Below, piece by piece: positions 25,460 to 29,699 of a stretch of DNA of 64,000 nucleotides (positions are counted from its first letter, which is position 1; the number at the start of each line of letters is the position of its first letter). This DNA is from Peptococcaceae bacterium BRH_c8a (GTDB lineage Bacteria; Bacillota; Desulfotomaculia; Desulfotomaculales; Desulfallaceae): contig LADP01000003.1 of NCBI GenBank assembly GCA_000961575.1, positions 124,001 through 188,000 of the forward strand. Direction: 5' to 3'. The notes under the pieces are model-generated. The model was given only the letters and a program-made list of their open reading frames with translations, ran no database searches and was not told the origin of the DNA. The position numbers and the translations under genes are program-made.

Positions 25460-27391
25460 TCAACGCCCTCCACTGAGCTTGACTATCCTGGCGCACCGTT
25501 TTTGGTGCGGTTTAATCATACCCAGAGCAGTATCAGCTATAAAATCCGGGGACAGTCCGTATTTTTCACGCAGCAACGGCTGGCTGCCGTGCTCCACAAA
25601 AATATCCGGAATACCCAGGCATTTAACCTTAATTTCATTTAGCATTCCTCCGGCAGCTGTGTTGCTAAGAAGCTCCAAAACGGCAGAGCCAAATCCACCT
25701 GCCAACATGTTTTCTTCCACTGTGATCAGTCGTCCGGTGCGCCTAGCGTGATGGATAATGCATTCGGCATCCAGAGGCTTTACGAACCTGGCGTTAATTA
25801 CCGTTGACGATACACCAGCGTCCTGAAGCATTTCAGCAGCTCTAACAGCTACCGGCACCATGTTGCCCACAGCCAGGATAGTAACGTCCTTGCCTTCGGT
25901 AATCACTTCCGCCTTACCCCAGGGGATTTCAGTCCACTGCTGTCCCAGGGCCACGCCGAGTCCGGTTCCTCGCGGGTAACGCAGTGCGCATGGCCCTTCG
26001 GCATTTAAAGCGGTGTACAGCATATCCTGAACTTCTTTTTCATTGGTGGGAGCCAGTATATTTATATTGGGCAACGGGCGGAGAAACGACAGATCGAACA
26101 ACCCGTGGTGGGTGGGACCGTCATCGCCGACAATTCCGGCCCGGTCGATGGCAAAAACCACCGGCAGGTTCTGCAAACAAACGTCGTGGATAATCTGGTC
26201 GTAAGCCCGCTGCAAAAACGTAGAGTACACAGCCACCACCGGTTTGAGGCCGGCTTTGGCCAGCCCTGCCGCCAGCGTCACGGCATGCTGTTCAGCAATA
26301 CCCACATCGTAAAAACGCCCGGGAAAATGATGAGCAAAATCGGCCAGGCCGGTGCCGCTGCACATCGCCGCGGTGATAGCCACAATCCGGTGATCTTGCT
26401 CGGCCAGCCGCACCAGTGTACTTCCGAACACTTCGGTGTATGTGCTGGTGTCGCTGCTTTTAATGCAGGTGCCAGATTTAACGTCAAAAGGCCCAATGCC
26501 ATGAAACATGTCTGCTTTTTCCACGGCCGGGGCGTATCCTTTACCCTTTTCAGTAATCACGTGTACCAAAACCGGCCCGCCCAGGGTTTTAGCCTGTTCA
26601 AGGGTGTTAATCATCGATGGAATGTTATGCCCGTTTATCGGACCCAGGTAAGTAAAGCCAAGTTCCTCGAAAATAATTCCCGGTACCAAAAAATATTTTA
26701 GGCTATCCTTAAACCGCTCGGCAAACTTAAGCACGGTGGAGCCGATGGAAGGGATGCGTTTCATTAACTGTTCAAATTCGTCCTTGCCCTTGGAGTACTT
26801 GGGGTCGGTTCTAATTCTGGTTAAATACCCAGACATAGCGCCCACGTTATGGGAGATGCTCATTTCATTGTCATTAAGCACTACGATCAGGTCGGTATTT
26901 AGGTGCCCGGCGTGGTTTAAGGCTTCAAAAGCCATTCCACCTGTCATAGCCCCGTCGCCAATTACCGCCACAACGGAGTTCTTATCACCTTTGAGATCTC
27001 TGGCCAGAGCCAAGCCCAGGGAAGCAGATATTGATGTACTACTGTGACCCGTGGTAAAAGCATCGTGTTCGCTTTCATCGGGCCGGGGGAAACCGCTTAA
27101 ACCACCGTAACGGCGCAGGGTATGAAACTTTTCCCGTCTGCCGGTAACCAGTTTATGCACATAGCTTTGATGGCCGACATCCCAAATGATTTTGTCCCGG
27201 GGGGTCTGAAAAACCCGGTGCAGGGCCAACGTTAATTCTACAACGCCAAGATTAGGCGCCAGGTGGCCGCCGTTGACGGCCACGGTATTTATAATAGTTT
27301 GTCTTATTTCCACAGCAAGCTGTTCCAGTTGGGTCATATTTAGATTTTGCAAGTCCTGCGGAGAATTAATATGTTCTAAAAAACCGCCCAA
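25460..27391 (-). CDS. dxs: 1-deoxy-D-xylulose-5-phosphate synthase
   Basis: First enzyme of the MEP isoprenoid pathway: pyruvate plus glyceraldehyde 3-phosphate to DXP, thiamin-PP dependent. 643 aa, normal. Signatures: [40 protein letters not shown] (TPP site), [54 protein letters not shown] start at 27391 with GAGGGTGA upstream. It is preceded by oapA and followed by tlyA with a stop/start overlap. IspA upstream in the same direction uses pathway products. Confidence 0.97.
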
Positions 27392-27426: not shown

Positions 27427-27993
27427 TTATTTCTTTACCACCCTGATACCAGTTATTCCGCTAACCGTTGCGATTAAGCGGCCGACAAAAAAAATAACGT
27501 CGTTGGGGCGGCTAAGGGCTATCTTTTTGCCGAACGCCTTGCCGCCCACGGTAAGAGCGGCAATGAAAGCCGTAATCAACATGTTCAATGTGGACAGGTT
27601 CAATTCCTCCCACATTTGAATAATCTGCAGAACCAGAGCAATACCTAAAGCACCGCTAACGGTGCCGGCAATGTCACCTACCACATCGTTGGCAATATTG
27701 GCCACCCGGTCTGCGTTGCGGATTAAAAAAACGCTCTCATGGGCGCCTTTAATCCGCTTGGAGGCCTTGGCATGGAAAGGTTTTTCATCTGCCGCCGCCA
27801 CCGATGTGCCCACCAGATCAGAGGTAATACCGACAAAGATAATCATAATTAAGAAAATAAAAGATAATATGGGGCTGTTTAAAGCGCGGGCAAAAAATTC
27901 AGATAATAGGAAAAATAGCGCGGCGATGATAAAAGAAATAAAACCGACAAATATTACGAACTTGCCGGAAACTGTAGACTTATTATTTTTCAA
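27427..27993 (-). CDS. oapA: OLE-associated membrane protein OapA
   Basis: 188 aa with about four transmembrane helices (FVIFVGFISFIIAALFFLL, then SFIFLIMIIFVGITSDLVG, and two more near 110 and 135-150) and a basic loop (KPFHAKASKRIKGAHESV). It is encoded directly after the large structured RNA at 28062-28650 and before dxs, exactly the place where oapA lies in OLE RNA-bearing Firmicutes. OapA binds OLE RNA and brings it to the membrane. TTG start at 27993 with GGAGAGG upstream. Named from context, RNA neighbour and topology. Confidence 0.85.
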   Translation of the reverse strand: MKNNKSTVSGKFVIFVGFISFIIAALFFLLSEFFARALNSPILSFIFLIMIIFVGITSDLVGTSVAAADEKPFHAKASKRIKGAHESVFLIRNADRVANIANDVVGDIAGTVSGALGIALVLQIIQMWEELNLSTLNMLITAFIAALTVGGKAFGKKIALSRPNDVIFFVGRLIATVSGITGIRVVKK

Positions 27994-28061
27994 CTGATCC
28001 TCTCCACGGTTTAAATCCCTTGGTATTTAATCGTCGTAACCTGGTATTTAGTATGTATACT

Positions 28062-28650
28062 GACAAGTGACAACGATACGGGTAAATGTTGTGGCTTAGG
28101 TCCAGCAGGTTTTCCCAATTCCATACCGGTTGTCGCCAAACCGGCGGTTTCCCTTTAAACGGAATCCCGGATCGTCACCGAGTCCGTGGCTGAATTACCA
28201 CTTAGTCCACACTATAATCCCCGTATCGTCACAATTTCTCATCGTACAGCCTAGGAGTTTTCCTCTACAGGATTACCTTTTTTTAGCCTCTTTTGCAGTG
28301 ACGGTTTAAACCCGCAGCATATAGGGTAAGGGCCCTTACACCAGTATGCCGCTTAATGGACCTCCACCGGCACCACTCAAGGCAGGCTACACTGCACGCA
28401 GCTTTCCCCACATGCAGGTTTATACCCGAGCCATAGTCGTATAACTAATACTCCCACGCACACGGGTCTCCGCGGGGGCAGGGTCAACGCCCACATGCCA
28501 TTGCGGGTCGCCCCGCCCCCTTAACTCCCAGTACCGACCCCCAACTGGGCGTCAGCAGCCAGCACCAGGAACTTCATTGATGTGCCCTTAACGGATTTTT
28601 AGGCCCGCCTTCAAAAAAGGGTTCCCGACTAGGATACTGTGTCACTTGTC
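28062..28650 (-). ncRNA. ole: OLE RNA (ornate, large, extremophilic)
   Basis: A GC-rich ~590-nt stretch with no usable reading frame, between ispA and oapA/dxs on the minus strand. The ends pair: GACAAGTGAC at the 5' end (28650-28641) with GTCACTTGTC at the 3' end (28071-28062). Several internal short inverted repeats fit a highly folded RNA. Size, neighbours and downstream OapA match the known OLE class of anaerobic and alkaliphilic Firmicutes, which forms a membrane-linked ribonucleoprotein tied to stress tolerance. Exact ends are estimated from the terminal stem. Confidence 0.88.
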
Positions 28651-28674
28651 CAAAAAATTATTATATCATTAAAA

Positions 28675-28703
28675 ATTATAGCATGCCGCCATATCGGCGG
28701 CAA
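28675..28703 (-). promoter_or_regulatory. Promoter of OLE RNA
   Basis: Minus strand: -35 TTGCCG (28703-28698), spacer of exactly 17, -10 TATAAT (28680-28675). Transcription would begin about 17 bases before the terminal stem of the OLE RNA. The spacer holds an imperfect GCCGCC/GGCGGC hairpin, possibly a residue of the ispA terminator. Confidence 0.65.
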
Positions 28704-28808: not shown

Positions 28809-29699
28809 CTATTGGTTGCGATTAATTACGAATTGGACGAGTCCGCGCAGGAATTGGGCTTCTGAGCCAAAGCTGTTTAGTGACGACAGCGCCGTTTCGG
28901 CGGCTTCGGTGGCTTTTTGCCTAGCGGCATCCAGGCCGAACAATGCGGGATAGGTTGCTTTTTGATTCCTCTGGTCGCTGCCCACCGGTTTGCCGATGAT
29001 TTGCTCATCCCCCACCACATCCAGAATATCGTCTACGATTTGAAAAGCCAGCCCCAGGCTATTGGCATAATCGGTCAGTTTTTGCAACTGCGCCTCGGAG
29101 GCACCGGATAATATGGCCCCGGCGCGTACTGAAACCCTAATTAAAGCCCCGGTTTTACGGGTATGGATGTACTCCAGCATATCTTCGTCAACAGTATCGC
29201 CCTCCGAAGCCAGGTCTACCACCTGACCGCCAATTAGACCCTGGGTTCCGGCGGCTTGAGCCAGTTCGGAAATCACCCGCACCACCCGTTCCGGAGCAAC
29301 GCCGGCGCTTTGCGGCAGTTGGGCCAAAACATTAAAAGACGACGTGAGCAGGGCGTCACCCGCTAAAATAGCCATTGCTTCACCAAAGGCCCTGTGGCAG
29401 GTGGGTTGACCCCGGCGCAGGTCGTCGTTGTCCATAGCGGGCAAATCGTCGTGCACCAGTGAGTACGTATGTAATAGTTCAACAGCGCAGGCGGCAGGCA
29501 TTACCGTTTCTGTGTTGCCCCCCACCGCTTCAGCCCCGGCCAGCACCAGGATTGGCCGCAGCCTTTTACCACCGGCGAATACGCTATACCGGACAGCCTG
29601 GTGAATGGCTGGCGGGTACGCGTTCACGGATGGCAGACACTGGTCCAGCGCCTTGTTTACCACTTTTGCCCGCTCGGCCAGTTCATCCCTGAAGTTCAT
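28809..29699 (-). CDS. ispA: Farnesyl/geranylgeranyl diphosphate synthase
   Basis: Chain-elongating prenyltransferase, 296 aa. First Asp-rich motif LVHDDLPAMDNDDLRRG (DDxxxxD form, typical of bacterial FPP synthase), second motif FQIVDDILDVVGD, plus GGKRLRPILVLAGAEAVGG and the Lys/Gln segment HTRKTGALI. Uses IPP and DMAPP made through Dxs. The start lies 3 bases from the xseB stop, so they are one operon. OLE RNA follows downstream. Confidence 0.95.
   Translation of the reverse strand: MNFRDELAERAKVVNKALDQCLPSVNAYPPAIHQAVRYSVFAGGKRLRPILVLAGAEAVGGNTETVMPAACAVELLHTYSLVHDDLPAMDNDDLRRGQPTCHRAFGEAMAILAGDALLTSSFNVLAQLPQSAGVAPERVVRVISELAQAAGTQGLIGGQVVDLASEGDTVDEDMLEYIHTRKTGALIRVSVRAGAILSGASEAQLQKLTDYANSLGLAFQIVDDILDVVGDEQIIGKPVGSDQRNQKATYPALFGLDAARQKATEAAETALSSLNSFGSEAQFLRGLVQFVINRNQ

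Follow-up and report, generated by a model that had tools for sequence, protein, structure and literature searches.

The window analyzed here, a 64,000-nt stretch of contig LADP01000003.1 from Peptococcaceae bacterium BRH_c8a, carries on its minus strand, in order, an ispA-type gene, a long noncoding stretch, a gene for a 188-aa protein, dxs, a gene for an FtsJ/S4 methyltransferase, and an NAD-kinase-like frame named from its sequence only (Table 1). The initial annotation had assigned the noncoding stretch to OLE RNA, and a covariance-model search bore this out: the Rfam OLE model RF01071, which has a gathering score of 50 bits, matched over its full length with 516.2 bits (E = 1.7e-148), and was the sole Rfam match within the window. 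The position proposed for it, between ispA and a helical membrane protein with dxs further downstream, was likewise confirmed, and its proposed extent, 28062-28650, lay within the model match but fell slightly short of it at both ends. The description of this stretch as about 590 nt, GC-rich and noncoding held for the last property, as no long reading frame was found in any of the six frames (longest stop-free run, 69 codons), but only weakly for the second, the GC content being 52% as compared with 49% for the window and 35% for the upstream spacer. The BRH_c8a genome contains a single OLE copy, which agrees at every one of the 173 columns whose conservation reaches 97% or more among 145 other OLE RNAs; by its sequence, it is an ordinary, complete, and well-preserved member of the known RNA class. 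OLE itself ranks with the largest bacterial RNAs for which no biochemical function is known.

Table 1. Features of the ole-oapA locus of BRH_c8a, with positions counted from the first nucleotide of the window.
Feature	Position	Strand	Basis
ispA-type polyprenyl synthase, next upstream of OLE	28809..29699	-	Pfam PF00348
Predicted OLE promoter, TTGCCG-N17-TATAAT, TG before the -10 (extended -10, TGCTATAAT)	28675..28703	-	sequence
OLE RNA (RF01071), full length, model 1-616	28051..28661	-	cmscan and conserved columns
Closing helix, 5' arm	28641..28651	-	covariation, 146 sequences
P3-type helices closing domain 1 (5 + 8 pairs), 5' arms	28613..28627	-	consensus fold
Hairpin with conserved CUAAAAAU A-rich loop (L4)	28590..28609	-	consensus helix, columns 61-80
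Self-complementary P9 loop GUAAGGGCCCUUAC	28326..28339	-	sequence
P3-type helices, 3' arms	28268..28283	-	consensus fold
Closing helix, 3' arm	28061..28071	-	covariation, 146 sequences
oapA, 188 aa, TTG start, DxxxD motif DVVGD	27427..27993	-	co-occurrence, adjacency, motif, fold
dxs, gene after oapA	25460..27391	-	Pfam

The fold was assessed in an alignment of 146 OLE RNAs, whose sequences came from the relatives, from sampling across the phylum, and from named Bacillota loci. The pairing ends noted at the outset (GACAAGTGAC and GTCACTTGTC, at 28062-28071 and 28642-28651) proved to belong to an 11-pair closing helix in the RNAalifold consensus. This helix covaries, with 87.5% of cells paired as against a mean of 65.6% and a maximum of 68.0% when the 3' letters were exchanged between sequences, and 35-58% in slid registers; because the OLE sequences are related, the shuffle serves as a guide and not as a probability. 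The closing helix is missing from the Rfam structure line for RF01071 and is probably the published P1, which PMC12265935 counts among the domain 2 stems. The P3-type helices were paired in 92.6% of cells, compared with a shuffled maximum of 70.9%. A fixed P3 length was considered as support for a membrane-spanning P3 and was rejected: length was nearly constant for the P3 arms (134-146 of the 146 sequences), but also for the closing helix (146) and for an 11-pair helix at columns 446-456 (137), so that length fails to single out P3.

Like the known OLE RNAs, for example those of Halalkalibacterium halodurans, Clostridium acetobutylicum, and C. botulinum, the BRH_c8a RNA combines a full-length model match, the closing helix, and the P3 helices with an A-rich L4, a long P9 bearing a self-complementary loop, and a gene beside oapA among isoprenoid genes. 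It differs from them in being known here from sequence alone, and from the H. halodurans RNA in that its P6 arm lacks an exact CCUCCU, which counts against the interpretation favored below. In published OLE structures the L4 loop is a dimer contact (PMC12286853), and L9.3 of P9 is the kissing contact in cryo-EM dimers (PMC12286853; PMC12265935). Long P9 loops without GGCC occur at four other loci (L146, L160, L198, and L147) and carry other palindromes (CUGCAG, GGCGCC), as expected if the loop self-pairs between two RNAs.

The neighboring protein, annotated initially as a four-helix OapA, is OapA, as judged by co-occurrence, adjacency, motif, and fold, and is a multi-helix, putative membrane protein, although its predicted model has more than four helical segments. 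It is 32-76% identical to 15 other OapA proteins, and D59, G62, N102, D103, G106, and D107 are invariant in the 16 diverse proteins, including the NDxxGD/DxxxD motif (D103, D107); DxxxD is typical of OapA (PMC11332333). It also resembles known OapA in the location of its gene directly downstream of OLE, in a basic PFHAKASKRIKGA segment, and in a CNNM-like predicted fold. The AlphaFold2 model (pLDDT 82.6) aligned with the CNNM/CorB membrane domain 7m1t over 127 residues (Z 13.8, rmsd 2.0), as against a Z of 8.0 at best for unrelated helical chains, which repeats a published result for H. halodurans OapA. Searches of the sequence against Pfam (E 0.001), NCBIfam, and the sequences of solved structures gave nothing relevant. 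The predicted fold resembles the membrane domain (CNNM, PF01595) present in MpfA/CorB/CorC, whereas the protein differs from these in its lack of a CNNM sequence match at E 0.001, in its lack of CBS or CorC_HlyC domains, and in its length of only 188 aa.

Homologs of the other known partners are encoded elsewhere in the genome, specifically OapB (G000:C14:29459-29761, matching the solved OapB 7k9b with E = 3.1e-13), OapC/YbxF (G000:C14:12812-13039, matching YbxF 4lck/3v7e with E of about 1e-16), and bS21. With OapA, these make the known RNP gene set complete, and BRH_c8a thereby contributes one typical, complete set; the OapB, OapC, and bS21 genes are not universal among OLE-bearing genomes. 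Genomes with OLE tend not to have MpfA (PMC11332333); in contrast, BRH_c8a has OLE plus two MpfA-type proteins (CorC_HlyC, 435 and 448 aa), which also counts against the favored interpretation. Among 60 relatives, all 20 CorC_HlyC-bearing genomes were OLE-positive and none of the OLE-negative genomes carried the domain, but as the latter number only five, the pattern is simply noted here and does not refute the published anticorrelation. Four nearly complete genomes (G040, G049, G053, and G057) are without OLE, OapA, and CorC_HlyC, and run contrary to a simple exchange of OLE for MpfA.

The promoter proposed immediately before OLE is present, and comparison with relatives revealed that the site is conserved far above chance. 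A perfect TGnTATAAT was located in the 120 nt before the conserved motif at the OLE 5' end in 57 of 74 loci (shuffled mean 0.94, maximum 3), and TTTG preceded the TG by 14 or 15 nt in about 47 of the 74. When the named Bacillota loci were added, TGnTATAAT was found in 103 of 143 OLE loci, including those of Lentibacillus, Bacillus, Clostridium, and Acetobacterium, compared with 0, 0, 2, 2, and 3 at five control positions within those loci; the promoter thus generally accompanies ole in the genomes sampled. Judging from these motifs, transcription of ole looks to start independently throughout the sampled Bacillota, and a conserved dedicated promoter would mean that production of OLE does not depend solely on the gene cluster. 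Term searches within a set of OLE papers yielded no report of a dedicated ole promoter.

No terminator was found between OLE and oapA, which suggests read-through into oapA followed by 3' processing. In one family (L010, L014, L018, and L085), the stretch from OLE to oapA contains a hairpin of the GGGCTGCT...AGCAGCCC kind that lacks a T run and is possibly a processing site. The BRH_c8a promoter spacer contains an inverted repeat (TGCCGCC-GATAT-GGCGGCA, 28684-28702), for which the roles of operator and of ispA terminator were weighed and rejected. Its arms are kept in G003 but broken in two genomes of the same genus (G001 and G002), and the minus strand has no T run after it; the repeat is therefore probably incidental.

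OLE and OapA were recovered from 55 and 54 of the 60 relatives, respectively, and both were missing in five, one of which (G030) is only 57% complete. Given this distribution and a copy that is typical, the earlier suggestion that the BRH_c8a RNA extends the OLE sequence range is weak. The only mismatch between the two, an apparent case of OLE without OapA (G018), was rejected, as the RNA is cut by a contig end with its 5' part intact. In 70 of 75 loci the gene immediately following OLE is oapA, and OLE sequence, in a few cases a partial or weak match, lies upstream of 78 of 80 OapA loci from Bacillota genomes. One OapA locus, from Desulfosporosinus metallidurans (L149), had no OLE in its 2.5-kb flanks and may be another unlinked case.

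Four relatives within the order of BRH_c8a (G019, G044, G052, and G025) have their only OLE on a different contig from oapA, and a fifth, G034, has a second OLE in addition to the oapA-linked one; these five RNAs group together as a single clade (FastTree support 1.0). G019 retains the gene order ispA-oapA-dxs-methyltransferase-NAD kinase, but OLE is cleanly gone, with the ispA and oapA frames touching (L204, 2149-3661) and no OLE detected there by Rfam; the OLE located elsewhere in this genome is accompanied by a promoter-like site and by a terminator of 11 pairs, AAAGCAACCCTAAAAGGGTTGCTTT-ATT. At the unlinked OLE of G025, a simple scan found a promoter-like site but no OLE-strand terminator. 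P9 of the moved type, measurable in three sequences, is 39-44 nt long in these, as against about 78, and has no GGCC loop, resembling 'variant 1' of the literature, in which P7-P9 are shorter (PMC11332333). The presence of OLE away from oapA in this clade indicates that linkage is not required. It is reasonably likely that ole in Bacillota is a unit of its own, with a conserved extended -10 and the capacity to work unlinked, that one clade has moved it and has a short P9 without the self-complementary loop, and that G034 holds both types. Two results of the comparison with about 140 relatives deserve to be retained: the conservation of the promoter and the existence of the unlinked clade.

Taken as a whole, the stretch is very probably a full-length OLE RNA, made from its own promoter and partnered by OapA in a dimeric, membrane-associated stress RNP. 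The placement of OLE directly upstream of oapA, adjacent in most loci and with no intervening terminator, would also suit a leader controlling oapA and dxs in cis instead of a free-standing RNA. However, the unlinked cases speak against a role exclusively in cis: four relatives have their sole OLE away from oapA, and in G019 ispA-oapA-dxs stands without OLE, which is present elsewhere with a promoter-like site and a terminator of its own. As the literature also describes OLE as stable, abundant, and working with proteins, a leader is highly unlikely.

A somewhat better case, though still an improbable one, can be made for OLE being only cut from a long transcript begun upstream of ispA, with the TATAAT accidental, since the H. 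halodurans gene cluster is described as one polycistronic RNA (PMC12265935). Against this origin stand the excess of TGnTATAAT over the control positions, the fixed spacing of TTTG in most loci, and the promoter-like sites retained by unlinked OLE copies. Decay to a non-functional copy, for which no supporting evidence was found beyond the report of defective OLE genes in some OapA-lacking genomes (PMC11332333), can be given almost no credence in view of the intact conserved columns and the intact OapA.

For the favored interpretation, that of a free-standing OLE RNP, a mechanism can be carried over from the work on H. halodurans. A sigma-A-type extended -10 promoter would start full-length OLE, and transcription would probably continue through oapA and dxs, with the 3' end of the RNA probably produced by cutting, as reported for H. 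halodurans. The RNA would fold with paired ends and could dimerize via the A-rich L4 loop and the self-complementary P9 loop, the CNNM-like OapA may hold it at the cell membrane, and OapB, OapC/YbxF, and bS21 may join as further partners. By analogy, such a particle would aid in coping with alcohol, cold, high Mg2+, and poor carbon sources. Genomes in which OLE and oapA are apart, or which hold two OLE types, make it possible to test directly whether OLE acts in trans and whether the P9 kissing contact is needed. In G034 (L074, 4894-5489; L028), one of the two OLE lineages is oapA-linked and the other is antisense between rpmA and Spo0B-like/obgE, neighbors that were named from sequence.
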